Shown in pieces: positions 4,526 to 34,473 of a DNA stretch of 50,616 bases. Made by a program: the position numbers and the translations under genes. Under the pieces are notes generated by a model. The model did no database searches. It had not been told where the DNA came from and worked only from the letters and a program-made list of their open reading frames with translations. Position 1 is the first letter of the stretch. Each line of letters begins with the position of its first letter. Source of the DNA: a virus; IMG/VR virus record IMGVR_UViG_3300005613_004910, positions 1 to 50,616 of that record. The stretch is one strand, 5' to 3'.

Positions 4526-5110
4526 ATGAGATCTTCCTATATTAAAAATAATTATGGTGCGATATTTGAAAGGCTTGTATATGCTTTCCTACCCAGTGTT
4601 TGTGTAGAACTGGGGGTGTTAGATGGTTATAGTACATTCCATATAGCCAAGGGTATTTTAAGAGCTCATAGATGTCGAGATCACCGATCTCATTTACATG
4701 CATATGATTTATGGGATGATTACGAATTTAAACATGGCAATAAGTCGGATGTAGAAAGTCTTTTGGTTACACATGAATTGGATCAATATGTTCATTTGTA
4801 TAAAGAGAATGCTTATAAGGTTAGTGATTTGTTTTGTGATAAATCTGTATGCTTTTTGCATATTGATATTAGTAATGATGGCGATGTGCTGAAAAGAATG
4901 GTAGAACTTTGGCATCCGAAGTTGACATTCGGAGGGATCATTGCGTTTGAGGGAGGTTCCGAAGAAAGAGATAATGTTGATTGGATGAAGAAGTATGAAA
5001 AGAGAAGTATAAAGGATGAGCTTCATAGAAGTGAGTTTATTCGTAAGCACTTTCGTTATGGAACTTATCTATCATTTCCATCTTTAACAATTTTAATGAA
5101 ACAGGTTTAG
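4526..5110 (+). CDS. Class I SAM-dependent methyltransferase
   Basis: A 194-residue protein with a Rossmann methyltransferase start (VCVELGVLDGYSTFHIAKGI), an acidic end to the second strand (LHAYDLWDD) and a fourth-strand motif (CFLHIDISNDGDVLKRMVELW) followed by LTFGGIIAFEGG. This order fits the Methyltransf_24/macrocin O-methyltransferase type. GGGAG precedes the ATG, which is 9 nt after the previous stop. The substrate cannot be read from the sequence. It is one of several methyltransferase-like proteins in the first 6.4 kb, which argues for a multi-step glycan-tailoring pathway. Confidence 0.7.
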   Translation: MRSSYIKNNYGAIFERLVYAFLPSVCVELGVLDGYSTFHIAKGILRAHRCRDHRSHLHAYDLWDDYEFKHGNKSDVESLLVTHELDQYVHLYKENAYKVSDLFCDKSVCFLHIDISNDGDVLKRMVELWHPKLTFGGIIAFEGGSEERDNVDWMKKYEKRSIKDELHRSEFIRKHFRYGTYLSFPSLTILMKQV

Positions 5111-5123
5111 AAGGGGTTCAATC

Positions 5124-5693
5124 ATGAAAGATGTTTTACATGGTTTTTTAAACTATACCATATACAATCTTATTTACCCTTTGGAAGATCAAGATTGGAT
5201 TGGAGAAGGGAAAGGTTTCTGGTGCCTTGATTGGTGGGTTGTTGAGGTCGCTAAATGTTTGTATGAAGGGGAAGAACGGTATATGGACTTCCCTATTCCA
5301 AAAAGGTTGGAAGGGAATGCAAATTTTTCAAAGGATGATATAGTTGCAGCAGCGAGAAAAAAACAAGAAGTATCAGAAGGTGTTTCCAAATCTGAATGTT
5401 CTAATTTGGTTGTAATTGAGACAAGTAGGGGTCTTGATGTGCTTCTACTTGAGAGATTGAGAGATTGGAAAAATATATATGTTTTTTATTGGTCTAATTA
5501 TCCTCAAGTCGCAAAGAAGACACATGATTATTTAGAAAAGGTAAGAACTGGTGAAATAACCTTTTTGTCTTCTTTGACGAACAATGTTGATATTCAAGAT
5601 TTTGTATTGGTATTGCCAGAAGAAAATAATTGCGGGATTTTATCAAGATCGAAGGAAAGTTATCGAACGTCAAGTTTCAAATGTTTCAAATGA
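5124..5693 (+). CDS. Hypothetical protein
   Basis: A 189-residue protein not assigned to any family. The N-terminal half is rich in aromatic residues (GKGFWCLDWWVVEVAKCLYEGEERY). The middle is a charged helix, and the C-terminal half has alternating strand-like segments (NLVVIETSRGLDVLLLERL, NIYVFYWSNY, IQDFVLVLPE) that could be a small Rossmann-like fold. No catalytic motif stands out. It has GGGG upstream of its ATG and lies between two methyltransferase genes in the same operon, so a role in the same pathway is likely but unproved. Confidence 0.6.
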   Translation: MKDVLHGFLNYTIYNLIYPLEDQDWIGEGKGFWCLDWWVVEVAKCLYEGEERYMDFPIPKRLEGNANFSKDDIVAAARKKQEVSEGVSKSECSNLVVIETSRGLDVLLLERLRDWKNIYVFYWSNYPQVAKKTHDYLEKVRTGEITFLSSLTNNVDIQDFVLVLPEENNCGILSRSKESYRTSSFKCFK

Positions 5694-5703
5694 GGAGGTA
5701 TAA

Positions 5704-6351
5704 ATGGGAGAACATCCGGGGAGTAGAGGAATGTATGATGCTATTGCTCAATGGGGATCTTGTTCTGTAGTTTGGTCAGAGTCTATGAGATGGGACAGAT
5801 TCGGCATCTTAGGAGTTTTAGGTGACTATGTTCTTAGATATGTAAAGGGTGACATTATTGAAATAGGTGTGGGGGAGAGTTCTGTATTTTTAACAAAACT
5901 TGCTGAAAAATACAGGAGAAGAGTATACCACGATGATCTTCAAAATAGTCATATTGTAAACATGAAAACGGTACCGGGAATTTTTCATCAGGCAGGAGTT
6001 GTTTATGCAGGAAGTTCGGATGATTTTTTTGCAAATGTCGAGTTCTCTCCAATAGCTTTGGGATTTATTGACGGAGAACATACGTACGAGCAAGTAAAAA
6101 AAGATTTCTGGAACATCTATAAATTGCTCGTTGAGGAGGGCTATATTTTTCTTCACGACACCTATCCTCTAAATGAAGACTATCTTACCCCAACTACTTG
6201 TGGAGATGTGTATAAATTCAGACAGGAGTTGGAAGTTAGATCCCACGAGGTTGGTGATGTAGAAGTATTTACCCTTCCTCATGGAGCTATGGATGTTGGA
6301 TTAACGATGGTTCGCAGACTTCCTATTGAACGACCGTATTTTCGGAGGTGA
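5704..6351 (+). CDS. TylF/Methyltransf_24-like methyltransferase
   Basis: A 215-residue class I methyltransferase resembling the macrocin O-methyltransferase group. GDIIEIGVGESSVFLTKLAEKY near residue 50 is the SAM loop. ALGFIDGEHTYEQVKKDFWNIYKLL with the DGEHTYE motif, then EGYIFLHDTYP, match the metal- and substrate-binding region of this family. A good GGAGG lies 5-10 nt before the ATG. The stop is directly followed by the ribosome-binding site and start of a putative glycosyltransferase, suggesting translational coupling. Substrate unknown, probably a sugar hydroxyl. Confidence 0.75.
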   Translation: MGEHPGSRGMYDAIAQWGSCSVVWSESMRWDRFGILGVLGDYVLRYVKGDIIEIGVGESSVFLTKLAEKYRRRVYHDDLQNSHIVNMKTVPGIFHQAGVVYAGSSDDFFANVEFSPIALGFIDGEHTYEQVKKDFWNIYKLLVEEGYIFLHDTYPLNEDYLTPTTCGDVYKFRQELEVRSHEVGDVEVFTLPHGAMDVGLTMVRRLPIERPYFRR

Positions 6352-6352
6352 T

Positions 6353-7387
6353 ATGATATCTGATATTGAGAAAAAGCAAGTTACAGGAATACTCCCATTT
6401 AAAAATACTCCGTCGGCGAATGATTATAGTATTCGACCAAACTGGATGGATTTGGAGATTAATTTCAATTCTGCTCCATGTCGTACTGATACAGCAATTA
6501 TCTGTACTTCTTGGTGGGGACATAGACCGTTTTTAAAAGCCACACTTACAAGCTTGCGTCTCACTGGAAAGTTCTTGATTTGCGCCTACGATCCTCCGGT
6601 TTATGCTTGGAATAGTGAGGTTGAGTACAAGAAGCGCATACCTCCTATTGATATTTTTTTGCTTCCTCATGCTTGGGTACATAAACATTTAACATTTGAT
6701 TCTCCTAAACGTAATGGTTGGTTTTGGGATGTAAGATACGCCCAAGGTATTGTAAAGTCATTTCCAAATATTAAATATGTATTTACTGTTAATGGCGATT
6801 GCCCGTGGGAGAAACCACAAGCTATTGATGAATTAATTTCCCTCATGGGGAGTGCAGATTTAATGGCTGTTACATCAGATAGTAAAACGATTCATACGTG
6901 TGCTGTACTATTTGAGGTTGAATCGTTCAATCGGATTATTGACTATATGTATGATTATCATAAAGTGTCAATTCCAGGATCGTACAGTCCAGAATTACTA
7001 CTTTTGGAAGCAGTTAAGCAATTAGGTCTTATCGAAAAAGTAGTTCCAAAACAGCCTATGGAACCAGGAGGTGATAGCGTCGATCACTATAGTCGTTATA
7101 AACAACCAAATACCTGGAACGATATTGTAGGTTATCGCAATATAGGTGCAGAGTTTTTAACAGCAGTAATTGAGCGTTTAGATCCTCCTGAGAAGAAATT
7201 TTTCGACTTCCGTTTTTTTGATGACATTTACTTTCAATATAATAACCATTTGTTGAAGTATTACGAAACTGGGGATCGTCGGTATTTATATATGTGTTGG
7301 GATCAGAACGAAGATAGTTGGTATGATAGAGTCCACTACCCTTTAGAAAGATATGGAGATAAGCCAATTTTTGGAAAAGAGAAATAG
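6353..7387 (+). CDS. Putative GT-A-like glycosyltransferase, paralogue 1
   Basis: A 344-residue protein with a nucleotide-sugar transferase layout: a first strand and turn (TAIICTSWWGHRPFLKATLTSLRL), a strand and putative metal-binding turn (YVFTVNGDCPWEKP), and a conserved acceptor-side segment (SPELLLLEAVKQLGL, NTWNDIVGYRNIGAEF). The same blocks recur in the gene at 7789, so the two are paralogues. GGAGGTGAT (6344-6352) abuts the ATG at 6353; an upstream in-frame TTG start inside the preceding gene is not needed. The family is not one I can name exactly, so the glycosyltransferase call rests on fold-like motifs and context. Confidence 0.55.
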   Translation: MISDIEKKQVTGILPFKNTPSANDYSIRPNWMDLEINFNSAPCRTDTAIICTSWWGHRPFLKATLTSLRLTGKFLICAYDPPVYAWNSEVEYKKRIPPIDIFLLPHAWVHKHLTFDSPKRNGWFWDVRYAQGIVKSFPNIKYVFTVNGDCPWEKPQAIDELISLMGSADLMAVTSDSKTIHTCAVLFEVESFNRIIDYMYDYHKVSIPGSYSPELLLLEAVKQLGLIEKVVPKQPMEPGGDSVDHYSRYKQPNTWNDIVGYRNIGAEFLTAVIERLDPPEKKFFDFRFFDDIYFQYNNHLLKYYETGDRRYLYMCWDQNEDSWYDRVHYPLERYGDKPIFGKEK

Positions 7388-10016: not shown

Positions 10017-10044
10017 TTGCTATAACCCCCAGACAAGGTATAAT
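10017..10044 (+). promoter_or_regulatory. Sigma70-type promoter for the hammerhead transcription unit
   Basis: TTGCTA at 10017-10022 and a perfect TATAAT at 10039-10044 are separated by 16 nt. Transcription would start near 10051, at the beginning of the structured non-coding region. No gene start lies within 900 nt downstream, so the first product would be RNA. Confidence 0.55.
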
Positions 10045-10050
10045 AACTAT

Positions 10051-10964
10051 AGTTCTTTTATATTGTAAGCGTTTTTTGGGGTTGATCGAAGCAACCTCGT
10101 CCGCCGGCGGGACCAGCAATCAGGTCGGCGGAAACCAAAAAAATCTTTGTGTTCTTTTAAACCCACCGGCAAAAGTTTCTGATTTCAAACGTACTAGGCT
10201 GAGTGATCCCTCCCTGACACGAACCAGGGAACAAAGGTTACGGCGATTGCTTAAAGGCAAAAAATGAGACCAAAGGCCGACACGAAGATCAGATAACCCA
10301 AGCCTGGATAAAAAAGAAATTGTTTATCATAGCTGTGGTTCGCTCGATTCTTCTTTTAAAAAATAGTTGAATCGGCTGCCTTTATACGAATATTTCTTTT
10401 ATGGATATTATCCATAATCCAGACATAGCCTCAGGAAAAACAGAATACAATAATTCTAATTGGATAATGGCAATAGCTTTATTGCGATGACTGCCCAGCC
10501 TTTTGGCTTAAAACCTTTTAAGTTTTTGTTTTCTTGACCCTCCGCTAAGGAGTTTCCTCTAATTATAGAAAGATTCAGTTAGCCACCAAGTACCTAAATC
10601 CTACAACCATTTTCTCCATGAAAATAACCGGATTGAATTTTACAGTCCTTAGATAGTTTTCCGACTTTAGATCCTTAACTTCATCGTTAATTTGCTGAAG
10701 TTACACGATGGGCGGGTCGGTTTACTTCCTACTGACAAATGTAAATGTCAAGTAAATCTGCCATGGAATTGTAGAAAGACTGCGATGAATATTTTAAGTA
10801 ATCGTACAGGAAGGTGCATCTCCCCACTAAAGATTTTATTTCTCCGCTGCTATTGGGTGAAGTTCTATCAACATATAAGAGAGCCTGACCAACCGAAAAT
10901 AAAGTCCAGGGGATTCCTCCTCCTTAAAAAGTAAAGCCGAAACCGGAGATTTATTTCTCCGGTC
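10051..10964 (+). ncRNA. Large structured non-coding RNA candidate (about 0.9 kb)
   Basis: No credible coding sequence is present in about 880 nt of an otherwise gene-dense genome. Many local helices are visible: GGTTG/CAACC (10080-10096), TCCGCC/GGCGGA with an inner GACC/GGTC (10100-10132), TCCCTG/CAGGGA (10211-10230), TTATGGA/TCCATAA (10399-10417), GCAATA/TATTGC (10470-10485), AGCC/GGCT (10497-10508), CTCC/GGAG (10540-10552), nested AATCC/GGATT around ATTTTC/GAAAAT (10597-10634) and CATCGT/ACGATG (10682-10710). A promoter sits just upstream, and the first hammerhead would cut at 10964/10965, defining the 3' end. Large ornate RNAs such as GOLLD and ROOL occur in phages, but I cannot assign this one to a class. 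Confidence 0.6.
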
Positions 10965-10996
10965 TGCCAGGGGTTGGTTCCTGGTACTGATGAGGC
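10936..10996 (+). ncRNA. Type II hammerhead ribozyme 1
   Basis: The conserved core is complete: GAAA (10939-10942) and CTGATGA (10987-10993). Stem II is GCC/GGC, open at the ends of the element. Stem III is CCGGAG/CTCCGG, different in sequence from the other copies but fully paired. Stem I is TGCCAGG/CCTGGTA. The predicted cut follows GTC at 10964. It releases the large non-coding RNA from the first mRNA. Confidence 0.88.
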
Positions 10997-11033
10997 AACC
11001 TAAAAATATTAATTTACTACAAGGAGGACTAAA

Positions 11034-11237
11034 ATGAGTCTACTAATCAAATTGTCAAACATTCCAGATGACGTAATACCTGTTTTAAGATCAAATGATC
11101 ATGGTGATATTTATTACAGGGGGATACCTGTAAAATATATTACAATAGCCCCAAAAAGCAGACTCAACGCAAAATACAGGATAACCACAGATAAAGGGCA
11201 ATATAGAATTGATGATGGTCATATTGAAATTTGTTGA
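11034..11237 (+). CDS. Small hypothetical protein
   Basis: A 67-residue protein, the first gene after hammerhead 1, with the cluster's standard leader (CTACAAGGAGGACTAAA) before the ATG. The sequence is beta-rich and basic (DIYYRGIPVKYITIAPKSR, KYRITTDKGQYRIDDG). No motif or family is recognised. Ribozyme cuts on both sides would leave it on its own short mRNA of about 340 nt. Confidence 0.6.
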   Translation: MSLLIKLSNIPDDVIPVLRSNDHGDIYYRGIPVKYITIAPKSRLNAKYRITTDKGQYRIDDGHIEIC

Positions 11238-11274
11238 TTATTTTACCATAAAACACAGGAAGAAGTCTAAACAA

Positions 11275-11333
11275 GCCGAAACTCCCTGTAACAGGGGAGT
11301 CTGCCAGGGATTGGTTCCTGGTACTGATGAGGC
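11275..11333 (+). ncRNA. Type II hammerhead ribozyme 2
   Basis: GAAA at 11278-11281 and CTGATGA at 11324-11330. Stem II GCC/GGC, stem III CTCCC/GGGAG with an extra wobble pair, stem I TGCCAGG/CCTGGTA. The predicted cut is after GTC at 11301. It stands between a stop codon (11237) and the AAGGAGG of the next gene. Confidence 0.92.
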
Positions 11334-11371
11334 AACCTAAAAATATTAATTTACTACAAGGAGGATTTATT

Positions 11372-11677
11372 ATGGAACTAAGAGTTTTTACTAAGACCGA
11401 TTGGGAAGGTTTTGCGGGATGTGAATCCAGAAAACCAATGATTGGAAAAGTATCCATGAAAGATACAGAGGAAGCGGAAGGTATTGTAGAAGGTATTGTA
11501 GTGGTAGACGGACTCAGAGTAGAAATGTATTTCTTAGACGAAAAGTGTATAGATGAAGTTATATATTCAAAAGATTTTATAGATTTTGTAAATGAAGATG
11601 TTATAACAATAGTAAAATCATGGCCAAAAATGATTACCAAGGACTTCGTTGTCAGACGAGGATTTGAAGAATTTTGA
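11372..11677 (+). CDS. Hypothetical acidic protein
   Basis: A 101-residue protein starting MELRVFTKTDWEGFAGCE. The ATG at 11372 follows the conserved AAGGAGG leader; an in-frame ATG at 11327 lies inside the hammerhead core (CTGATGA) and would be destroyed as a start by ribozyme folding, so it is rejected. The middle is acidic and repetitive (EEAEGIVEGIVVVDG), the end is basic. No family recognised. Confidence 0.6.
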   Translation: MELRVFTKTDWEGFAGCESRKPMIGKVSMKDTEEAEGIVEGIVVVDGLRVEMYFLDEKCIDEVIYSKDFIDFVNEDVITIVKSWPKMITKDFVVRRGFEEF

Positions 11678-11691
11678 AGAATATAAATAAA

Positions 11692-11750
11692 GCTGAAACT
11701 CCCTGTAACAGGGGAGTCTGCCCATGATGGTTCATGGGTACTGATGAGGC
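11692..11750 (+). ncRNA. Type II hammerhead ribozyme 3
   Basis: GAAA at 11695-11698 and CTGATGA at 11741-11747. Stem II is GCT/GGC with a U-G pair next to the core. Stem III is CTCCC/GGGAG. Stem I is the second allele, TGCCCATG/CATGGGTA, eight consecutive pairs. The predicted cut is after GTC at 11718. Confidence 0.92.
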
Positions 11751-11784
11751 AACCAATATTAATTTACTACAAGGAGGATTTATT

Positions 11785-12516
11785 ATGACGAAGACAAGTA
11801 AGAGCAAGAAAACTAAGGCACTTCCTAAAGAAGCAATTTCGGCCAAAGAAACAGCTAAGAAGGCTAAGGCCCAAATAGCAGCAAAAGACAAAAAGGAAGT
11901 TACCAAGAAACAGGCTAAGAAAACTAAAGCCAAGGTAGCAAAGAATGCAAAAGTTACCAAGAAAACTGTTAAAACAATTACGACTATTGATCCAAAAGTA
12001 GAAAAAGCGTTGAGAAGAAAACTTTTGAAAAATAGTAGAATGCTCAACGAACTCGAATTGCTTGATATTCCTATAGATCGCAACAGCAATACTGAAGAAC
12101 TTAAAAAGCAGTTCGTAGCGGCCATGCGGGAGATAAATTCGTCGTTTTCCTCAAGCCGTAAACTTGCAGAACTCAGCAAGAGCACCACTAATCTTTTCGA
12201 ATCACTGACCGGTAAGAAAGTAACCAAGGTAGCAAATGTTAAAGACAAAAAAGAAAAAAAAGGAGGGAAGACTATGCCTAACAAGCTGATAAAGAATGTA
12301 GAATCCAATAAGGAACTGAAGTCTAAGGTAACAGAGAGCATGTTGAATCATGAAATATCCAGACTCTGTTCTATGGACGATGATCAGATGAAGGCCAGGA
12401 TCAAAAAAATAAAAAGTCCTGTCAAACTGGAAGCACTCCGGATCGCCTCAATGTGGTGTGGAGTAAGAAAGTTTGCACGGCTGGCTCGCATCAAAAGAAA
12501 CGCTATGATGGTTTAA
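11785..12516 (+). CDS. Lys-rich histone-like protein with an internal start
   Basis: A 243-residue basic protein. The first ~75 residues are Lys/Ala-rich and low in complexity (KETAKKAKAQ, KKQAKKTKAKVAKNAK), similar to histone H1-type or nucleoid tails and likely to bind nucleic acid. A predicted helical segment follows (RKLLKNSRMLNELELLDI). The last 80 residues, beginning MPNKLIKNVESNK, form a separate domain that has its own ribosome-binding site (see the next entry). The ATG at 11785 follows the cluster's AAGGAGG leader; an in-frame start inside hammerhead 3 is rejected. Function beyond nucleic-acid binding is unknown. Confidence 0.65.
   Translation: MTKTSKSKKTKALPKEAISAKETAKKAKAQIAAKDKKEVTKKQAKKTKAKVAKNAKVTKKTVKTITTIDPKVEKALRRKLLKNSRMLNELELLDIPIDRNSNTEELKKQFVAAMREINSSFSSSRKLAELSKSTTNLFESLTGKKVTKVANVKDKKEKKGGKTMPNKLIKNVESNKELKSKVTESMLNHEISRLCSMDDDQMKARIKKIKSPVKLEALRIASMWCGVRKFARLARIKRNAMMV
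12274..12516 (+). CDS. Internal in-frame product of the Lys-rich gene (80 aa)
   Basis: A strong AGGAGG (12261-12266) lies 7 nt before an ATG in the same frame as the surrounding gene. Translation from it would yield the C-terminal domain alone, without the Lys-rich tail. The site could be chance, since Lys/Gly-rich codons make purine runs, but its spacing is ideal. Confidence 0.4.
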   Translation: MPNKLIKNVESNKELKSKVTESMLNHEISRLCSMDDDQMKARIKKIKSPVKLEALRIASMWCGVRKFARLARIKRNAMMV

Positions 12517-12520
12517 TAAA

Positions 12521-12579
12521 GCCGAAACTCCCTGTAACAGGGGAGTCTGCCAGGGATTGGTTCCTGGTACTGATGAGGT
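12521..12579 (+). ncRNA. Type II hammerhead ribozyme 4
   Basis: GAAA at 12524-12527 and CTGATGA at 12570-12576. Stem II is GCC/GGT with a G-U pair, stem III CTCCC/GGGAG, stem I TGCCAGG/CCTGGTA. The predicted cut is after GTC at 12547. The element starts 5 nt after the preceding stop codon. Confidence 0.9.
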
Positions 12580-12616
12580 AACCTAACAATATTAATTTAC
12601 TACAAAGGAGGATGTT

Positions 12617-12883
12617 ATGAAGAAAGAAACAAGAAGAGAAAGAGACAAAGAAATGATTAATGATCCCAGAAAATGGGGAACCTTTCCTTTTCTTCCAGTA
12701 ATGAGAAAGATGAAGGGTAGCGGTGTTGAAGTTGGAATTATTTTGTCGGCAGGAGATCACCTTACAGTTTTTGATTGTAATTTGTTTATGCTTCCGGAAA
12801 AACTCTCCGACTTTGGGGATTTCGATAGATGGGACTACCGATCAATTGAGGATTTATTAGATGACGGATGGACAGTTGACTGA
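12617..12883 (+). CDS. Small hypothetical protein
   Basis: An 88-residue protein with AAAGGAGG before the ATG. It begins with a very basic helix (MKKETRRERDKEMIND) and ends acidic (DFDRWDYRSIEDLLDDGWTVD). No recognised domain. It is the first of four small genes carried between hammerheads 4 and 5. Confidence 0.6.
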   Translation: MKKETRRERDKEMINDPRKWGTFPFLPVMRKMKGSGVEVGIILSAGDHLTVFDCNLFMLPEKLSDFGDFDRWDYRSIEDLLDDGWTVD

Positions 12884-12911
12884 GATAAATTTTCTATTGT
12901 AGGGGAGAAGC

Positions 12912-13100
12912 ATGGAAAAAAGAAGAAAGTTGCTACTACTACAGGCAAAAGAAAAACATCAACCAAACGCAATCCATTTTTGTGGGGTTGCCACAAGTTG
13001 GAGTCAATGTTTCACAATTGAAAATGGAAAACTATGCCTATGGTATAATTTGGAAAATAATACGAAGATGATGTTTGAAGGGGAGAAGCATGGAAAATAA
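12912..13100 (+). CDS. Small hypothetical protein
   Basis: A 62-residue protein with GGGGAG 7 nt before its ATG. It contains CGVATSWSQCF and ends in EGEKHGK. The end overlaps the start of the next gene by 11 nt. The start region (GGGGAGAAGCATGGAAAA) is nearly identical to that of the next gene at 13080-13097, suggesting a small duplication of a translation start. No function is recognised. Confidence 0.5.
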   Translation: MEKRRKLLLLQAKEKHQPNAIHFCGVATSWSQCFTIENGKLCLWYNLENNTKMMFEGEKHGK

Positions 13101-13317
13101 AAAGAAATATCCGTTTGATCACACAACGGCAAACGGGCAAAAACGTCTTATGGCATATTCGAGAGGGTTAGATCCTGAAACATACATAGCCAAGCCTATT
13201 GATGTAACAAAACCAGGAGACTATGGCTGTGATCCGCTTGGAGATAATAAATTTAAAATGGTTCCCAGCGGAGATGTTGTAGATCTCAATGAAATGAGAA
13301 AGAGGTTAAATAAATGA
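13090..13317 (+). CDS. Small hypothetical protein
   Basis: A 75-residue protein starting MENKKKYPFDHTTANGQKR. The ATG at 13090 is preferred over an in-frame one at 13075 because GGGGAG sits 6 nt ahead of it. The pattern GLDPETYIAKPIDVTKPGDYGCDPLG is proline- and glycine-rich and probably lacks a large core. Family unknown. Confidence 0.55.
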   Translation: MENKKKYPFDHTTANGQKRLMAYSRGLDPETYIAKPIDVTKPGDYGCDPLGDNKFKMVPSGDVVDLNEMRKRLNK

Positions 13318-13377
13318 AAAGCCTGATAGAGAAATCAAAAACAGTTAACCATATATGAAGTAAAAGGAAGATTTATT

Positions 13378-13623
13378 ATGGTAAATAAAAGAATCATAGA
13401 AGCAAAGTTAAGAGAAAATTTGATGCTGCTGTCTGATGGTGATGAAGAGAAGGCCAAGGAATTATGGGAGGTATCAAAAGGTGACGATCTAGACGCGCTA
13501 ATGATCAGAACCAAGATTTTTAAGGATCTTGGTTATTGCTTCAAATGCGGTAGAAAGTTGGATTTCGTTGTTGAGACCAATGGCATTCCGCATTGCCTTG
13601 GACCTTGTGAATTATCCCGGTGA
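13378..13623 (+). CDS. Small putative zinc-ribbon protein
   Basis: An 81-residue protein with AAGGAAG upstream of the ATG. The N-terminal half is helical (RENLMLLSDGDEEKAKELWEV). The C-terminal half has CFKCGRKLD and later CLGPC, a Cys4 arrangement suited to one zinc ion. The DNA around the stop codon contains a short duplication (GTGAATTATCCCG twice, 13609-13632). It lies directly before hammerhead 5. Confidence 0.55.
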   Translation: MVNKRIIEAKLRENLMLLSDGDEEKAKELWEVSKGDDLDALMIRTKIFKDLGYCFKCGRKLDFVVETNGIPHCLGPCELSR

Positions 13624-13675
13624 ATTATCCCGAACTTCCTTGGATCTTGTGAATTCAACAAGGAATATAAATAAA

Positions 13676-13734
13676 GTCGAAACCTCCCGTAAAAAGGAGG
13701 TCTGCCAGAGATTGGTTCCTGGTACTGATGAGGC
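13676..13734 (+). ncRNA. Type II hammerhead ribozyme 5
   Basis: GAAA at 13679-13682 and CTGATGA at 13725-13731. Stem II is GTC/GGC, stem III is the CCTCC/GGAGG allele, and stem I is TGCCAG/CTGGTA with one weakened pair. The predicted cut is after GTC at 13702. Confidence 0.9.
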
Positions 13735-13770
13735 AACCTAATTTTAATTTACTACAAAGGAGGATTTATT

Positions 13771-14478
13771 ATGACAAAGAGATACCCAATTAAGTGTTAC
13801 GTGCTAAAGGCAGTCCAAGAAATAAGTTCTGTGTTTATGGATTGTGGAAGAGAAACATTTACTAATGCTGATATCTTTGAAGAACTAAGAAAGGGTGCCC
13901 AATTAAATATCAAACAAAGAGATGTTGCCACCATAATGGCTAGATTTTTCATAAATGGTGGGTTCGTTGAAGAATGCGGAACAGAAATTATTTCTGGTAA
14001 AAGAGTAAAATGCCGAAAATTAACTCAAAAGGGAATCAATACAAACTGGAAAAGGGTCCCATCAGAAAAACAGATTTCAAGAGAAAACAGTTCAACTTTT
14101 GCTGATAATGAGACCGAGAAAGGTCCTGTACAGCCTGTAGATCCTGTACAGGCCATAGATAAAGAATACGGGGCAGCTAAAAGAGATTTAGATGAGTCAG
14201 AAGATGAGAAACCAGAACAAATTGATTTGGCTGAAGCATTGATCAACTACGTTGACGATCTAAAGAAACGAATCTCCCTGTGGGAGATGAAATGTAGAGA
14301 TCTTCAGTACAAACTTGAATCTACCGAAAATGAATGGAGAAGTACAGTAAGAAGTAAAAATAAAACCATAGAGAATCTAAATCAAAAGATTATAGCCTTA
14401 CGAAACAGAATCAACAAAGGTTATAATCTTAAAGAAACAAGGCTATTGAAAGACGTAGCCAAATTCAGGGGAAAATAA
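13771..14478 (+). CDS. Winged-helix-like protein with C-terminal coiled coil
   Basis: A 235-residue protein with AAAGGAGG before the ATG. The first ~95 residues resemble a winged helix-turn-helix module (NADIFEELRKGAQLNIKQRDVATIMARFFINGGFVEEC, then a basic wing KRVKCRKLTQKG). A polar linker with PVQPVDPVQ repeats follows. From residue ~150 a long coiled coil (YVDDLKKRISLWEMKCRDLQ ... NLNQKIIALRNRI) is predicted. This layout fits a DNA-binding protein that oligomerises. Its stop codon (TAA) is fused to the first base of hammerhead 6. Confidence 0.55.
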   Translation: MTKRYPIKCYVLKAVQEISSVFMDCGRETFTNADIFEELRKGAQLNIKQRDVATIMARFFINGGFVEECGTEIISGKRVKCRKLTQKGINTNWKRVPSEKQISRENSSTFADNETEKGPVQPVDPVQAIDKEYGAAKRDLDESEDEKPEQIDLAEALINYVDDLKKRISLWEMKCRDLQYKLESTENEWRSTVRSKNKTIENLNQKIIALRNRINKGYNLKETRLLKDVAKFRGK

Positions 14479-14479
14479 A

Positions 14480-14538
14480 GCTGAAACTCCCTGTAACAGG
14501 GGAGTCTGCCCATGATGGTTCATGGGTACTGATGAGGC
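14480..14538 (+). ncRNA. Type II hammerhead ribozyme 6
   Basis: GAAA at 14483-14486 and CTGATGA at 14529-14535. Stem II GCT/GGC, stem III CTCCC/GGGAG, stem I TGCCCATG/CATGGGTA. The predicted cut is after GTC at 14506. The element starts one base after the preceding stop codon. Confidence 0.92.
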
Positions 14539-14573
14539 AACCAATATTAATTTACTACAAAGGAGGATTTATT

Positions 14574-14774
14574 ATGGCAAAGAAGGTAGAAATCACTTTT
14601 GGAAACGATGGGTCAGTAAGGGTTGAAGCATTTGGTTTTAAGGGAGCCAGTTGTGAAGAAGCAACTGCTTTTCTTGATACCCTATTTGAGATTAAGAAAA
14701 GGAATCACAAAGATTCTTACTACGAGCAGTCTGAAAAAATTGCTGATGGTCTACCAAGCGGATGGTGTGGATAA
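14574..14774 (+). CDS. DUF2997 family protein
   Basis: A 66-residue protein matching the DUF2997 pattern: a strand with KVEITFGNDGSVRVEAFGFKG followed by SCEEATAFLDTLFEI. The family is small and its biochemistry is unknown; in cyanobacteria it is encoded next to DUF1257 (Ycf35) and a Ycf46-type ATPase, exactly the order seen here. The ATG at 14574 follows the AAAGGAGG leader; an earlier in-frame start inside hammerhead 6 is rejected. Confidence 0.8.
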   Translation: MAKKVEITFGNDGSVRVEAFGFKGASCEEATAFLDTLFEIKKRNHKDSYYEQSEKIADGLPSGWCG

Positions 14775-14805
14775 TAACAAAGCCAAAAATAAAAAGGAGA
14801 ACGAA

Positions 14806-15168
14806 ATGAGTCATGTATCAAAATACAGTACGATTATTAGGGATACCAGCCTGTTCTGCAACAAAGCAGAGAAACTTGGCCATGAAGTAATCCAGGGTGA
14901 TCAAATAGTGAAATTGTTTTCAACACTAATTGCCTGTGTTGCATCGGTAAAGGTGAAGGGCTGGTGTTACCCTTTGGCAATTACTGAAGCAGGGGAAATT
15001 CTTTATGATCATTTTGGTTCACAGCAAGGATCCATGGAGAATTTTCACGGGCTTATAAAAGACTATAATGAAGAAATGGTTATTCAAAACATTCCAATTG
15101 ATTTAATTCAGACCTTCTATACTGAAGATATTAAAGAGGGTACAAAGCTCGTGCTTGAATATAAATAA
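14806..15168 (+). CDS. DUF1257 / Ycf35-like protein
   Basis: A 120-residue protein starting MSHVSKYSTIIRD, the typical DUF1257/Ycf35 opening, followed by ACNKAEKLGHEV-like helix text and the family's C-terminal segment (YNEEMVIQNI). AAAAAGGAG lies 8 nt before the ATG. The long upstream extension of the frame overlaps DUF2997 and is not used. Role unknown; conserved linkage with DUF2997 and Ycf46 implies that the three act together. No hammerhead separates it from DUF2997, so both would stay on one processed mRNA. Confidence 0.8.
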   Translation: MSHVSKYSTIIRDTSLFCNKAEKLGHEVIQGDQIVKLFSTLIACVASVKVKGWCYPLAITEAGEILYDHFGSQQGSMENFHGLIKDYNEEMVIQNIPIDLIQTFYTEDIKEGTKLVLEYK

Positions 15169-15169
15169 A

Positions 15170-15228
15170 GTCGAAACCTCCCGTAAAAAGGAGGTCTGCC
15201 AGGGATTGGTTCCTGGTACTGATGAGGC
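15170..15228 (+). ncRNA. Type II hammerhead ribozyme 7
   Basis: GAAA at 15173-15176 and CTGATGA at 15219-15225. Stem II GTC/GGC, stem III CCTCC/GGAGG, stem I TGCCAGG/CCTGGTA. The predicted cut is after GTC at 15196. The stop codon of DUF1257 ends 2 nt upstream. Confidence 0.92.
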
Positions 15229-15265
15229 AACCTAAAAATATTAATTTACTACAAAGGAGGATGTT

Positions 15266-16675
15266 ATGAAGAAAGAAATTATCAATTATCTCAGAGCTGG
15301 TTTCCCTGCAATCTGGCTTCAAACACCAGAACCGAATAGGGTAAGGAAAAATGTCTATACATCTTTACAAGAGTTTGTTCGGAAAGATGGTAAGGGTTAT
15401 AATATCATCGAATGGACTAATACATTGGATCCAAACCCTTTGAAATCAATTCAACAATTGATTAAATCAGATCCATGTACAATATTATTTGCGTACAATT
15501 GGCATTGGTATGCAGATAAGCCACAGCTTATTCAATTACTGCAAGATAACATGCCAATTTGGGCAAGTCAGGCAAAGGCATTTATTGCTGTATCACCGCT
15601 GAACAAAATACCAATCGAATTGGAAAAGGATTTTGTTCTTTTAGATATGCCTTTGCCTGATGGAATTGAGATTGATGAGGCTATTAAAAAGATAGCAATA
15701 AATCAAAATCAAATCCCCAAAGGCAAAGACCTTGCAAGATTGATTTCTTCATGTAGAGGATTAACAAAGGCTGAACTGGACTCGGTTCTGGCATTGTCGC
15801 TTATTAGTAATGGCAATAGTTTTGACAAGAAAATTATTAATAAATATAAAACCATGGCAATCCAGAAAACTGGTTTCTTAGATGTTTTGCCACCGACAAT
15901 GAACTTCTCGGATATAATAGGTTATAATAATATCAAAAGTTTCATTCTGGAAACGATAGATAACCCGAAGGCTAAAGGTATCATGACCATCGGACCTCCA
16001 GGATGTGGGAAGACCTCGCTAATGAAGGCAGTAATTGGAGAGACTGGTAAGTTTGGCCTATCGGTGAATATGGGAAATCTGTTTAGCAAATATCAAGGTG
16101 AGACTGATCAAAATATAAATAAAGTGATCAAGATAATCACTGCTATTGGGGATTGTTTCGTGCTCATTGATGAATTTGAAAAGCAGTTTGCTGGTGCTTC
16201 GAGTGATGGAAGCTTGGATAGTGGCACTACCAGAAGAGCAACAGGGCGTTGGCTTGAGTTTTTGCAAGATAGGCCAAAAGGTGTTTATATCTGTGGAACA
16301 GCAAATTCATTTGCTGGCATTCCCGGAGAATATCTTAGACCTGGACGGTGGGATTCTTCTCCATTCTTTATTGACCTTCCTGCTAAGAAAACCAAATTGC
16401 AAATCCTAAAATACTATCTCAACAAAGCCAACATAAAGGTTACCAGAAAGGAATATCCAGAGATGGATCAGTATACTGGTGCTGAGATAGAAGCATTAGT
16501 ACATATTGCTGATATGCGAAACATGTCGTTGAAACAGGCAAGCTATTGTATTCTACCTCAAGCAAAAACAAAGGCAGAAGATATAACTGCTCTTAGAGCT
16601 TGGGCAAAAGGTAGAACAATCCCAGCCGAGGCAATTCCGCCTGTTGGGAGCATTAAAAGAAACATCGATCTATAA
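15266..16675 (+). CDS. Ycf46-like AAA+ ATPase
   Basis: A 469-residue AAA+ protein. The N-terminal ~200 residues resemble the Ycf46 leader domain (LRAGFPAIWLQTPEPNRV, later DLARLISSCRGLTKAELDSVL). The AAA+ module follows: Walker A GPPGCGKTSLMKAV near residue 243, Walker B CFVLIDEFEKQF near residue 296, sensor 1 GVYICGTANSF and an arginine-finger region (YLRPGRWD), then the helical lid. Ycf46 proteins are conserved in cyanobacteria and plastids with an unclear, possibly photosynthesis- or CO2-related role. In a phage it probably remodels a complex containing DUF1257/DUF2997. It has its own processed mRNA between hammerheads 7 and 8. Confidence 0.85.
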   Translation: MKKEIINYLRAGFPAIWLQTPEPNRVRKNVYTSLQEFVRKDGKGYNIIEWTNTLDPNPLKSIQQLIKSDPCTILFAYNWHWYADKPQLIQLLQDNMPIWASQAKAFIAVSPLNKIPIELEKDFVLLDMPLPDGIEIDEAIKKIAINQNQIPKGKDLARLISSCRGLTKAELDSVLALSLISNGNSFDKKIINKYKTMAIQKTGFLDVLPPTMNFSDIIGYNNIKSFILETIDNPKAKGIMTIGPPGCGKTSLMKAVIGETGKFGLSVNMGNLFSKYQGETDQNINKVIKIITAIGDCFVLIDEFEKQFAGASSDGSLDSGTTRRATGRWLEFLQDRPKGVYICGTANSFAGIPGEYLRPGRWDSSPFFIDLPAKKTKLQILKYYLNKANIKVTRKEYPEMDQYTGAEIEALVHIADMRNMSLKQASYCILPQAKTKAEDITALRAWAKGRTIPAEAIPPVGSIKRNIDL

Positions 16676-16682
16676 GTCAAAA

Positions 16683-16742
16683 TCCGAAACTCCCTGTAAC
16701 AAGGGAGTCTGCGTAAGATTGGAACTTGCGTACTGATGAGGA
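16683..16742 (+). ncRNA. Type II hammerhead ribozyme 8 (most divergent)
   Basis: GAAA at 16686-16689 and CTGATGA at 16733-16739. All three helices differ from the common forms yet stay paired: stem II TCC/GGA, stem III CTCCCT/AGGGAG, stem I TGCGTAAG/CTTGCGTA. The predicted cut is after GTC at 16709. This copy gives the strongest covariation evidence. Confidence 0.92.
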
Positions 16743-16779
16743 CACCTAATCAAAAAATAAAATAAAAAGGAGGAGTACT

Positions 16780-17964
16780 ATGGCAGAAGAAAAACTCACG
16801 TTTGGGAAGTCTAAAATGGGGACAGTACATATTCTTCAAAATGGTAAGGCTAAATGTGACAAAAAAATTGTAACTATAACAAGCGATCCTAAGCTAAAGA
16901 TTAAGGATGTCACATGTAGTAAATGTAGAAAGTATAAGGTTTTTCAACAGCATTTGAAAAATCCAGAAGTGTCTACCGCTGAACATAAACCGGAACCTGT
17001 GTCTGAACCGGAACCTGTGCCTGTGCCTGTGCCAGACCCTGCGCCTGAAGTTAAAGAAAAACCTGAGCCAAAAACTGAGGGAAAGAGAAAAGACATCGGA
17101 ATAAAAACTAAAATAGATAAGTCTAAAGAAATCTCTGAACAGATTGAACATAAACCGGAACCTGTGTCTGAACCGGAACCTGTGCCTGTGCCTGTGCCAG
17201 ACCCTGCGCCTGAAGTTAAAGAAAAACCTGAGCCAAAAACTGAGGAAGTTCCTCTTGGCCCACAATTTATAATAAGGTCAATCAATAGGGGCATGGGTGA
17301 GAATATCTGCATCGTTCATAAGCCAACCGGAAAGTTCTTCTTTGAGGGATTGCATAAGATGGTTGTCTACGATGTAATGAAAGCTTTAAATGGAATAAAA
17401 GATCAATGGTTATCGGAAACAGATCCGATGCCGAAGAACTTTGCCAAAAGATGTAGAAAGGCAATCAGACTTGCATACGAAATCTGTGACATCGACATAC
17501 CATCTGGCTTGAGAAAGTCTAAAGATGGTTCTCGAAGCAAAATCAAAAAACAACGTCAGAAGGAAAAGAAATCTAAGAGAAAGATTAAGCGAAGACCAAA
17601 GGCGAAGATTGAGACAGCACCCAGAAAGATTAAGAGAAGAACAAAGGTAAAACCTGCTGCTTTCCAGGCCAGAAAGATTAAGCGAAGGCCAAAGGCGAAG
17701 AATGAAGTGGTTGAAAAAGAAGTTAATGAGGAAATCATCTCTGAAAAGAAAATTGCAAAGATGGAGAAGATTGTTAGAAAAAAAATAGAGGAAGGATCTA
17801 TCTTTATAGATATGATCCAAAGCATCATCACTATGTTTGATGTGGACGAAACGACTGCAGATAAAATGATAAGACAAACTGTTACTGAAATGACCAGAGG
17901 ACAGGGAATACCCGTTTTTATAGCCCTTGCAAAGACAGTAGAAGACGATTTTTATTCATTATAA
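16780..17964 (+). CDS. Modular protein with Pro/Glu repeats and KIKRR array
   Basis: A 394-residue protein. Residues ~28-50 contain CDKK...CSKCRKYK, a possible small zinc knuckle. A Pro/Glu/Val-rich spacer (PEPVPVPVPDPAPEVK) is present twice because of an exact 100-nt DNA duplication (16981-17080 and 17146-17245). A globular segment follows (IRSINRGMGENICIVHKPTGKFFFEG). Then come three copies of KIKRR followed by P or T and K (SKRKIKRRPK, PRKIKRRTK, ARKIKRRPK). The C-terminal ~70 residues are a helical domain. AAAGGAGG precedes the ATG. Not a recognised family; a scaffold or nucleic-acid-associated role is the best guess. Confidence 0.6.
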   Translation: MAEEKLTFGKSKMGTVHILQNGKAKCDKKIVTITSDPKLKIKDVTCSKCRKYKVFQQHLKNPEVSTAEHKPEPVSEPEPVPVPVPDPAPEVKEKPEPKTEGKRKDIGIKTKIDKSKEISEQIEHKPEPVSEPEPVPVPVPDPAPEVKEKPEPKTEEVPLGPQFIIRSINRGMGENICIVHKPTGKFFFEGLHKMVVYDVMKALNGIKDQWLSETDPMPKNFAKRCRKAIRLAYEICDIDIPSGLRKSKDGSRSKIKKQRQKEKKSKRKIKRRPKAKIETAPRKIKRRTKVKPAAFQARKIKRRPKAKNEVVEKEVNEEIISEKKIAKMEKIVRKKIEEGSIFIDMIQSIITMFDVDETTADKMIRQTVTEMTRGQGIPVFIALAKTVEDDFYSL

Positions 17965-17968
17965 TAAA

Positions 17969-18027
17969 GCCGAAACCTCCCGTAAAAAGGAGGTCTGCCC
18001 ATGATGGTTCATGGGTACTGATGAGGC
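17969..18027 (+). ncRNA. Type II hammerhead ribozyme 9
   Basis: GAAA at 17972-17975 and CTGATGA at 18018-18024. Stem II GCC/GGC, stem III CCTCC/GGAGG, stem I TGCCCATG/CATGGGTA. The predicted cut is after GTC at 17995. It is the last ribozyme; the next transcript end is the terminator at 18942. Confidence 0.92.
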
Positions 18028-18066
18028 AACCTAACAATATTAATTTACTACAAAGGAGGATTTATT

Positions 18067-18936
18067 ATGAAACCAGAACAACTACAGGAAGGGGCTTTCT
18101 GTCAACTAAAAATTGGGCGGTGGGATGCGAGTGTACGTCTTCCAAAAGGAAAACTTGGAGACAAGGTACCAAAGAATATTATAAGAGCAACCCAAGACCT
18201 TATCGATGATAGAACACTCCTTAACGATATTGCTACAATAAAAAGGGCAGCAAAGGGATACCTGGTGAGAAACTCACTTCCGTTTAGTATGGATGGAGTT
18301 TTTTGGGTTAACAAAGAGCAAATTCCTGCGTTGGATGAAAAGTTCAAAGAATTTGAAGTTGAATATAAAAATCGTTTAGACAAACTTGTTAGAAATTATA
18401 TCAAGATGAAAAATGATTTTAGAAAAAAGTATCCAACTTATTACAACGGATCAAAGTATCCGACTGCTTCTAATCTTAGAAGAAAGTTCTATTTTAAGTG
18501 GCAGTTTTTTCAGTTTACTATCCCAGACAAAAAGATGAATATTCTGCCTCCGTCTATCTATAAAAAAGAAAAAGAGAAGATGTTGAATTTAGTGAAAGAT
18601 ATGGAAGAGATGACAATAACGATGGTAGGCAATCTGTTAATCAAAAGGGTTCAGAAGCTTTCAAAGCAATGTGTGACCGGCAAGATTAATGGTAATACAG
18701 TCAACTCCATAGAAAAATTTATGGGTCGTTGGGATACCCTATGGGGGGATTATGTTGATGAAAAGAGAATGAAAACTGCTATGAAAAAGATGAAGGAGGA
18801 AGTCAAGAATATGAGTACAGAGCGACTCAATAATAATGAAGACTTCAGAAACAAAATGGCAGGTAGTTTGGAATCAGTAATAAACCAAATCAAGAATATA
18901 CCAGGATTCGAACTTAAGAGGAAGTTGGACATCTAA
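18067..18936 (+). CDS. DUF3150-like phage protein
   Basis: A 289-residue protein resembling DUF3150: an N-terminal beta segment (FCQLKIGRWDASVRLPKGKLG), a helix pair (LNDIATIKRAAKGYLVRNSLPFSMDGVFWVNKEQIPALDEKFKEFE) and a long helical C-terminal half (NRLDKLVRNYIKMKNDF ... MKKMKEEVKNM). Proteins of this type are found in phages and near Ycf46-like or CbbQ-like AAA+ genes; their function is unknown. AAAGGAGG precedes the ATG. It is the last gene before the terminator, so it probably belongs to the same functional set as the ATPase upstream. Confidence 0.6.
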   Translation: MKPEQLQEGAFCQLKIGRWDASVRLPKGKLGDKVPKNIIRATQDLIDDRTLLNDIATIKRAAKGYLVRNSLPFSMDGVFWVNKEQIPALDEKFKEFEVEYKNRLDKLVRNYIKMKNDFRKKYPTYYNGSKYPTASNLRRKFYFKWQFFQFTIPDKKMNILPPSIYKKEKEKMLNLVKDMEEMTITMVGNLLIKRVQKLSKQCVTGKINGNTVNSIEKFMGRWDTLWGDYVDEKRMKTAMKKMKEEVKNMSTERLNNNEDFRNKMAGSLESVINQIKNIPGFELKRKLDI

Positions 18937-18941
18937 AATTG

Positions 18942-18979
18942 ATACTGGAACGGAATAAAACCCGTTCCAGTATTTCTGT
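18942..18979 (+). terminator. Intrinsic terminator closing the hammerhead unit
   Basis: ATACTGGAACGG and CCGTTCCAGTAT form a 12-bp stem with an A-rich loop, followed by TTCTGTTTT. It lies 5 nt after the stop of the last gene in the cluster. Confidence 0.85.
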
Positions 18980-32836: not shown

Positions 32837-33457
32837 ATGTGTGGAATAATAGGATTCTACTCTGAAAGGAAAAGACCAGGCGAAATAAAAATTCTAAGCA
32901 AACTGATGGAGGAGTCATCTATTAGGGGCATACATAGTTTTGGTGCTGCATATTTTTCTGGGAACAAAATAAAAATAAAGAAAAGTAGGGTGCTAACCCG
33001 ACCAGAACTAATTAATGGTTTTGTTAGTGATGAAAAATCAAACAGATTTATATTTCATTGTAGATACTCTACCAGTGGTGATTTTGAGAATATGGATAAC
33101 AATCCACCAATATACGCCAATGGGGCAGCAATAGTAATGAACGGTGTAATCTCAATGAAAAAGAAAAGGGGATTTGAAAAAGAGTTTAAAGTAAAGTGCA
33201 AAACAGAGAATGATTCTGAAATAATACTCCGGAAAGATTATCTAACATTCTTAAAAACTAATCCAAAAATGTCTTTTGCAGGAATTATTTTGAAGGGTAA
33301 TAAACTAAACATCCTAAGAAATAATAAAAGACCTTTATATAGGTTTGATTATTATGGTGCAACCTTTATTGTCTCTACAGTAGACATAGCATATAGGTCA
33401 GGAATACCTATCGAGAAAATTATACCAATCCAACAAATGAAGTTAATTACAATCTAA
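32837..33457 (+). CDS. Class II glutamine amidotransferase domain protein
   Basis: A 206-residue protein starting MCGIIGFYS, with the catalytic Cys as residue 2 after Met removal. Family motifs follow: RGIHSFGAAYF, FHCRYSTSG, NNPPIYANGAAIVMNGVIS and ETND-like CKTENDSEIIL. It hydrolyses glutamine to supply ammonia or, in some members, cleaves gamma-glutamyl bonds. There is no fused synthetase domain, so the partner is probably a neighbouring ligase such as the amidoligase at 34466. It starts 3 bases after the metallopeptidase stop, and its own stop overlaps the next start (TAATG). Confidence 0.88.
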   Translation: MCGIIGFYSERKRPGEIKILSKLMEESSIRGIHSFGAAYFSGNKIKIKKSRVLTRPELINGFVSDEKSNRFIFHCRYSTSGDFENMDNNPPIYANGAAIVMNGVISMKKKRGFEKEFKVKCKTENDSEIILRKDYLTFLKTNPKMSFAGIILKGNKLNILRNNKRPLYRFDYYGATFIVSTVDIAYRSGIPIEKIIPIQQMKLITI

Positions 33458-34473
33458 TGAATATATTGAGCTATATAGAAAAGGGCGAGAAAAAAAGTAA
33501 TCTAAATCTATTTGTGGATTACTATAAGTTATTTATGAACAGTGGTGATTGTGATCCTGCATTTCCGGCACTAAATTATATATGTGATCGGTTCGAGCTC
33601 AACATAGAGCAGCGGTATTGGATTGCGTTTTTATACGGAACAAATTATTGTGCACCAACTGTTTACTACATATATAATGAGTTCCCTGACTTTGAAAATG
33701 TGAATATTTCAAGAATGAGAAGATGGTGGAAAGACAATAAAGAAAAAACACTATTTCAAACTGACAGAGCCAAAGTAAAAAATTTTGATTTCTTTGTGAA
33801 GATAGTTAAATCGTATATAGAGTTAATAGGAAGCTCACAAGAAGACTCCATCTGCTCAACAAAGTCATACGAAGAACTTTATAAGCTCTCATCAAAAATT
33901 TTTTATTTTGGGAGGTTCTCTATATTTAATTATACACAAGCATTGTGGGAGTTGACGAACACAAGGCTTATACCAACATTTTTTGATCTAAAGCAAGCCG
34001 AGAGCTGTAGAAATGGGTTATGTTATGTATTCGACAGGAAGGAATTTATAACAAAAAAACAAAAGGCAAAGATCAATTATGGGGTATTGGATAAAGATTT
34101 GGAAGACCTCCTTTTGGATCTAAAGAAGCGAACTAATCTACCAGTAAATATGTGGAATGTTGAGACTGCACTTTGTGCCTATAAAAAGTTATTTTGGGGA
34201 ACAAGATATTTATTCTATTATATTGACAGACAACAAGAGGAAATCTCAATACTACAGAAGAAAGTAAAACAAGGTGTTAATTGGAAACCACTTTGGGATT
34301 TCAGAAAAGAGTTCTTTGATAATAGCATCATTGGAGAAATCAATAATTGGGATGGCATAAGAAAAAACAGAATGAACATATTTAGATATAGAAGAGTATT
34401 TGGGAATGCAAAGAGTTTTGATACATATAAAAGAAAAGTAAACTTCATCAACTCAGGTAAATGTTATGAATGA
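33457..34473 (+). CDS. Alpha-glutamyl/putrescinyl thymine pyrophosphorylase-like protein
   Basis: A 338-residue protein whose pattern I associate with the aGPT-PPlase (clade 2-like) family of phage DNA hypermodification: YYKLFMNSGDCDPAFPALNYICDRFELNIEQRYW, FLYGTNYCAPTVYYI, and the C-terminal VNMWNVETALCAYKKLFWGTRYLFYYIDR. The family has a DNA-glycosylase-like helical fold and joins amines or amino acids to pyrophosphorylated hydroxymethyl-thymine in DNA. Recognition is from memory of the family and has not been checked by search. The GATase, amidoligase, kinase-like and radical SAM genes around it support the call. Confidence 0.6.
   Translation: MNILSYIEKGEKKSNLNLFVDYYKLFMNSGDCDPAFPALNYICDRFELNIEQRYWIAFLYGTNYCAPTVYYIYNEFPDFENVNISRMRRWWKDNKEKTLFQTDRAKVKNFDFFVKIVKSYIELIGSSQEDSICSTKSYEELYKLSSKIFYFGRFSIFNYTQALWELTNTRLIPTFFDLKQAESCRNGLCYVFDRKEFITKKQKAKINYGVLDKDLEDLLLDLKKRTNLPVNMWNVETALCAYKKLFWGTRYLFYYIDRQQEEISILQKKVKQGVNWKPLWDFRKEFFDNSIIGEINNWDGIRKNRMNIFRYRRVFGNAKSFDTYKRKVNFINSGKCYE

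Follow-up and report, generated by a model that had tools for sequence, protein, structure and literature searches.

A phage operon in the window analysed here, the whole IMG/VR contig IMGVR_UViG_3300005613_004910 (50,616 bases, classed as linear, from an environmental metagenome), carries nine type II hammerhead ribozymes (HHR1 to HHR9) among its thirteen genes (g1 to g13; Table 1), and related contigs carry comparable arrays, in one case with ribozymes of a different class at orthologous boundaries. We regard it as very probable that self-cleaving ribozymes cut the polycistronic transcript of this operon in cis at the majority of its gene boundaries, and that it is the cut, not the family of ribozyme that makes it, that is selected. 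This reading builds on what is directly observed in these genomes, i.e. sequences, structures, covariation, position, synteny and the replacement of one ribozyme class by another.

An original prediction made from the letters alone had placed nine type II hammerheads at these sites and asked for a run of the Rfam Hammerhead_II covariance model (RF02276; gathering cut-off 37 bits). That run returns exactly these nine, all above the threshold (39.9-56.4 bits), all on the plus strand and within 7.1 kilobases (kb), with no further match elsewhere in the 50.6-kb contig. A strict parser, which requires the core (CUGANGA and GAAA), a NUH cut site and three helices with at least 4 (stem I), 2 (stem II) and 4 (stem III) pairs, independently recovers the same nine, agrees with every predicted cut site to the base and finds no hammerhead in 1.65 Mb of shuffled sequence. 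As had been claimed, CTGATGA, GAAA and a GTC cut site are present in every one of the nine, and all have the type II layout, with stem II open and stems I and III closed by loops. Their helices differ while the pairing is kept, again as first described: there are three forms each of stem III and stem I, and stem II reads GCC/GGC, GCT/GGC, GTC/GGC, GCC/GGT or TCC/GGA. A start codon with a strong Shine-Dalgarno sequence lies 34-39 nucleotides (nt) past stem II in each case, and after every element except HHR8 the leader is almost the same, running up to CTACAA(A)GGAGGA and the start codon. The earlier placement of the elements between a coding region and a Shine-Dalgarno leader needs one correction: HHR1 has no clear gene before it, the roughly 1.4 kb ahead of it being devoid of any open reading frame (ORF) with a Shine-Dalgarno sequence. 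With their cores intact and their helices and pseudoknot covarying, the window elements look like active hammerheads.

Ten further contigs were gathered by a pattern scan and by a search with the AAA protein of the operon, and Rfam hammerheads occur in all ten. The strict parser counts 75 hammerheads in the eleven contigs (13 in G010, 11 in G008, 9 in the window, 8 each in G001 and G009, 7 each in G003, G004 and G005, 3 in G007 and 1 each in G002 and G006), and a slightly looser version raises G010 to 14 and G005 to 8, so that most relatives carry arrays of 7-14. The stems of these hammerheads differ even more widely in sequence than those of the window, with the pairing preserved, and a start codon with a Shine-Dalgarno sequence follows 69 of the 75 (median 34 nt past stem II). 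A Watson-Crick helix between loop I and the 3' tail averages 3.86 base pairs (bp) over the 75 elements versus 3.13 ± 0.10 after shuffling (0 of 2000 shuffles), a comparison that ignores relatedness, the examples from within one genome being the stronger part; inside G001, for instance, the helix covaries as ATAGTCT/AGACTAT, TGACCT/AGGTCA and TTGTCT/AGACAA. In HHR8 of the window this pseudoknot is weak. The arrays occupy the same block of genes as in the window. In G005, G008 and G010 the last hammerhead precedes the gene for the DUF3150 protein and none lies inside the helicase-primase genes that follow, the G009 array ends earlier, before AAA, and that of G004 extends over three further junctions. 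In G010 (L056) the AAA frame is apparently interrupted around codon 330, tblastn giving two pieces that lie in different frames, through a sequencing error or in reality.

How would such an array act? The ribozymes begin immediately at the preceding stop codon or a little beyond it, and stop a short distance ahead of the following Shine-Dalgarno sequence. Cutting by the nine hammerheads of the window would yield a free leader RNA and nine mRNAs, two of them polycistronic since no ribozyme directly precedes g5, g6, g7 or g10. Hammerhead and pistol chemistry leaves 2',3'-cyclic phosphate and 5'-OH ends. The downstream message would accordingly begin with a 5'-OH at the stem I hairpin, the stem III hairpin and a 2',3'-cyclic phosphate would close the upstream message, and the hairpins at both ends would probably protect and isolate each cistron. 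Cleavage in this phage, the release of separate messages and an effect on their stability or translation are what these structures would predict, and the suggestion that the ribozymes alter decay or relative expression is an inference of the same kind. The serial processing originally proposed fits the intact cores, the covariation, the placement between stop codon and Shine-Dalgarno sequence, the arrays of the relatives and the pistol ribozymes described below. Its assumption of a single promoter is not supported.

Perhaps the position next to stop codons has a meaning of its own. In 42 of the 75 hammerheads the element starts at -1 to +5 nt relative to a stop codon, and in two relatives with other junction elements (L224 and L226, see below) the first strand of the element often begins inside the stop codon. 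It is conceivable that a ribosome halted at the neighbouring stop codon keeps the ribozyme from folding, in which case cutting would report translation of the upstream gene, which would refine rather than replace the explanation preferred here. Genome compaction, however, also predicts such tight packing and about 40% of the hammerheads lie farther from a stop, and we consider regulated cleavage of this sort unlikely.

Could the elements instead be mobile or recombining regulatory cassettes, each a ribozyme with its Shine-Dalgarno leader, that spread between genes, with cleavage no more than tolerated or a by-product? In the window, two alleles of stem III are combined with two of stem I in all four possible ways (HHR2/4, 3/6, 5/7 and 9), which means that the cassettes have recombined with each other; six of the seven copies in G005 are nearly identical; and gene order varies among the relatives, yet an element still stands ahead of each gene. 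Comparable in this respect are the mobile promoter/stem-loop cassettes of T4-type phages, which recur as short regulatory elements between genes and are shuffled along with these; unlike the window elements, they carry promoters and stem-loops and not self-cleaving RNA. Core, helices and pseudoknot, however, stay intact through compensatory changes, and the spread of cassettes does not by itself account for the pistol ribozyme having taken over some boundaries in one relative. This reading appears to us distinctly improbable.

That relative, G014 (IMGVR_UViG_3300033146_004708, L095 in the tree), carries the same operon as the window. Its orthologues of AAA and g2 stand behind hammerheads that have intact cores and score 34.5 and 33.4 bits, slightly below the Rfam cut-off; the parser locates a third hammerhead. 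Interleaved with them are five matches to pistol (RF02679; 38.6-57.1 bits against a cut-off of 34.5), a proven self-cleaving ribozyme class that is absent from the window. Two of the pistols stand ahead of the g12 and DUF3150 orthologues, the window counterparts of which follow HHR8 and HHR9, and three lie elsewhere in the array; all have the P1-loop pseudoknot (e.g. UUUGAG/CUCAAA and UCAUAG/CUAUGA) and the AUAAA(C/U)A motif. Two more junctions hold a third, unclassified type of pseudoknotted element. It is difficult to see why two unrelated self-cleaving folds should replace each other at orthologous junctions if the phage made no use of the cut, and because relatives put different ribozymes or structured RNAs at the same boundaries, selection seems to maintain a cut between cistrons and not any particular class of ribozyme. 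The finding bears directly on the possibility that the hairpins matter and not the cut, the elements serving as stabilisers of mRNA or as translational insulators and those of L223-L226 (see below) not being ribozymes at all. Every cistron is indeed flanked by strong hairpins, several elements are placed within reach of a terminating ribosome, and the L223-L226 elements have no Rfam match. Hammerhead and pistol, however, share only self-cleavage, yet they swap at orthologous junctions, and their catalytic nucleotides, which a simple hairpin could dispense with, are conserved. We thus hold this possibility to be unlikely and favour selection for the cut.

The relatives in question, L223, L224, L225 and L226, have the same genes as the window (AAA 43-62% identical) and no hammerhead or pistol match; repeated structured RNAs occupy their junctions between stop codon and Shine-Dalgarno sequence, none of which matches an Rfam ribozyme family at E <= 1. 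On the preferred reading, relatives use hammerheads, pistols or other structured elements, the last of these likely though unproven ribozymes, at the same boundaries. The L224, L225 and L226 elements are pseudoknotted: their 5' strand base-pairs with the loop of a hairpin on the 3' side, and another hairpin lies in the interval. Covariation of this form is strong in L224 and L225. The pseudoknot averages 7.5 bp versus 4.63 ± 0.34 (0 of 5000) in 16 elements of L225 and G014 whose segments were picked by eye, and 4.92 versus 3.75 ± 0.13 (0 of 500) when all junctions are parsed automatically. Across 11 copies from L224 the proposed structure shows 97.9% pairing and double-sided changes at 14 pairs (0 of 500 shuffles), whereas sliding it out of register leaves 28-47% paired; the pseudoknot columns themselves hardly vary. 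A covariance model of the L224 form reaches L226 only at E 0.21 and does not detect L225. Because it does not convincingly find either, we claim a shared architecture for the elements of these three contigs and not one family. A joint MAFFT alignment of L224 and L226 elements, with the 3' hairpin misaligned, gave no consensus structure, the L224 form alone doing so, and the exact L226 core pattern occurs only in L224 and L226 contigs. At the L223 junctions, among them those ahead of the genes at 6537 and 9989, the form is different again: two adjacent hairpins without an Rfam match. Some contain the motif GCGAACTGGGA, of which the locus has nine copies. In the tree, L223 is sister to the hammerhead carrier G004 (98.9/95), and L224, L225, L226, L238 and G014 form one group (100/100); the tree is unrooted with several weak nodes and gives no direction of class replacement. 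Approximately at 870-930 in L238, upstream of DUF3150, there is a hammerhead-like element with the core UUGAUAA instead of CUGANGA, in which C3-G8 has apparently become U3-A8 and three helices are still possible by eye. The L223-L226 elements are candidate new self-cleaving ribozymes. That those of L224, L225 and L226, together with the two G014 junction elements, make up one or more new self-cleaving classes replacing hammerhead and pistol at orthologous boundaries is a tentative proposal, to which we give somewhat less than an even chance.

Several observations weigh against cutting at most boundaries as a selected trait. Stem I of HHR5 has a mismatch, and four genes (g5, g6, g7 and g10) are without a ribozyme. 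G009 has no hammerhead before its g12 and DUF3150 orthologues, copies within one genome are often nearly identical, as spreading cassettes would also be, and L223-L226 are without known ribozymes; if their elements do not cleave, cutting would not be universal in the lineage.

The original prediction also held that serial arrays of this kind were undescribed, which was too strong. Prophage clusters of several hammerheads, many of them type II, were found to flank single genes or short gene blocks, and it was proposed that long phage transcripts are processed into operon- or single-gene mRNAs; tandem hammerheads cleaved in vitro, and one triple arrangement cleaved in E. coli (Perreault et al. 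2011, PMC3088659). The window likewise has multiple hammerheads flanking successive phage genes on one strand. Whereas the arrangements tested there were small (~2 kb, up to three ribozymes), the operons described here hold 7-14 each, the arrays persist throughout a diverged phage lineage, and RNAs of other classes occupy the same boundaries. Haloviruses HF1 and HF2 have a hammerhead (HHphage) immediately ahead of a start codon within an early transcript that is polycistronic and has a mapped 5' end at most 3 nt from the cut site (PMC3088659); the position ahead of a start codon is as in the window, but these viruses have just one element, and its core is a variant. The pistol class came to light in searches around phage genes associated with hammerhead and twister, and its members are known to occur close to phage genes and to other ribozymes (Harris et al. 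2015, PMC4604425). G014, with five members above threshold in its orthologous operon, fits that pattern, and differs from it in alternating pistol with hammerheads at the same kind of junction. A literature search, with subscription journals mostly outside its scope, returned no paper on arrays this large or on class replacement within one operon. The novel points are the size of the arrays, their retention within one phage lineage and the replacement of one class by another.

How widespread are such arrays? A generic hammerhead pattern, scanned over viral contigs and bacterial genomes, found 41 stretches in the latter, many in Clostridia. Among the matches listed (155 stretches parsed), 18 hold four or more hammerheads and the largest array has 10; judged by these 18, arrays are a recurrent phage feature, and the window array is among the larger ones. 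A distant blastn search with a single hammerhead cassette gave weak matches in phages, including isolates with one to three hammerheads (CRP-7, R22Y and Dulem virus 39); RcTiptonus and ZHS, chosen by protein, have none. Roseobacter phage CRP-7 (L217, MK613349) is cultured and has one type II hammerhead at 570-633, 1.7 kb upstream of a MoxR-family ATPase gene; it is a possible laboratory model.

The claim that one promoter and one terminator bracket the array survives only for the terminator, a good hairpin. Promoter-like sites are no commoner in the region than expected (26 versus 25.2 ± 4.6 by chance), and for this reason a single promoter at 10017-10044 is a guess. The leader was also considered as a large ornate RNA of 0.9 kb and set aside, with no Rfam match, no sequence homologue and a fold z-score of only -1.84; a hairpin motif first suspected in it by eye gained no support from a motif search. 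Just ahead of HHR1 lies the CU-rich run TTCCTCCTCCTTAAA, and a run like ATCCTCCTCCTTT stands upstream of the first junction element in most relatives with leader sequence (L225 at 3142, L226 at 3599, L242 at 4100 on the reverse strand, and the leaders of G003, G004, G005, G008, G009 and G010); it was not found in L223. In L225 and L226 the run is CCTAT, matching their ATAGGAGG. The run may equally be read as the Shine-Dalgarno sequence of a divergent ORF on the opposite strand, and in G003 and G004 ORFs of about 125 amino acids start there. Present in the window lineage, an anti-Shine-Dalgarno run is absent upstream of the hammerhead arrays of other phages; this absence and the opposite-strand reading weaken the idea that it regulates the hammerheads.

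PHROG profiles match a helicase, a primase, a DnaB-like helicase, a DNA polymerase and a UvsX-like protein in the window, on the strength of which we take it to be a phage genome or a large part of one; megablast of the operon region against GenBank phages gave no match. At 33457-34473 there is a homologue of the alpha-glutamyl/putrescinyl thymine pyrophosphorylase annotated in Escherichia and Klebsiella phages of ~150 kb, which suggests that the phage DNA contains hypermodified thymine. The DNA polymerase (38428-43077, 1549 amino acids, with HNH-endonuclease matches) and the UvsX-like protein (45075-47561, 828 amino acids) have in common extra segments of intein-like appearance. Neighbouring ORFs at 4526-6351 match parts of one DNA methyltransferase profile and are possibly a split or decayed gene.

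Table 1. Features of the hammerhead operon in the order in which they follow each other in the window (aa, amino acids; cut sites are predicted)
Feature	Position	Strand	Remarks
Candidate sigma70-type promoter	10017..10044	+	TTGCTA-16-TATAAT; consensus scan, 10/12; unproven
Long leader	10046..10934	+	no convincing ORF; HHR1 would free it as a separate RNA
CU-rich run	10916..10930	+	complementary to the operon's Shine-Dalgarno sequences
HHR1	10935-11004	+	48.8 bits; cut before 10965
g1	11034..11237	+	67 aa, no known function; ORF with Shine-Dalgarno sequence
HHR2	11274-11341	+	55.2 bits; cut before 11302
g2	11372..11677	+	101 aa, no known function; G014 orthologue behind a hammerhead
HHR3	11691-11758	+	50.9 bits; cut before 11719
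g3	11785..12516	+	243 aa, lysine-rich, no known function
HHR4	12520-12587	+	51.7 bits; cut before 12548
g4-g7	12617..13623	+	four small genes (88, 62, 75, 81 aa) on one predicted cleaved unit
HHR5	13675-13742	+	44.5 bits; cut before 13703
g8	13771..14478	+	235 aa, no known function
HHR6	14479-14546	+	50.9 bits; cut before 14507; starts at the base after the g8 stop codon
g9, g10	14574..15168	+	66 and 120 aa; pair conserved in the lineage (tblastn across relatives)
HHR7	15169-15236	+	51.5 bits; cut before 15197
g11, AAA ATPase	15266..16675	+	469 aa; PF00004, E 9.8e-18
HHR8	16682-16749	+	39.9 bits; cut before 16710
g12	16780..17964	+	394 aa, basic, repetitive; G014 orthologue behind a pistol ribozyme
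HHR9	17968-18035	+	56.4 bits; cut before 17996
g13, DUF3150 protein	18067..18936	+	289 aa; PF11348, E 1.4e-7; G014 orthologue behind a pistol ribozyme
Intrinsic-terminator-like hairpin	18941..18974	+	13-pair stem; operon end

What is the significance of keeping a cut at the same boundaries while the RNA that would make it changes? What self-cleaving ribozymes do in phages has been an unanswered question since 2011, and conservation of the cut through a change of class would be the clearest comparative evidence that the dicing of mRNA is itself selected, a question that this operon would make testable in one construct. It also points to candidates for new ribozyme classes by position and not by similarity; if these are borne out, the phage operon would be a natural trap for new ribozymes.

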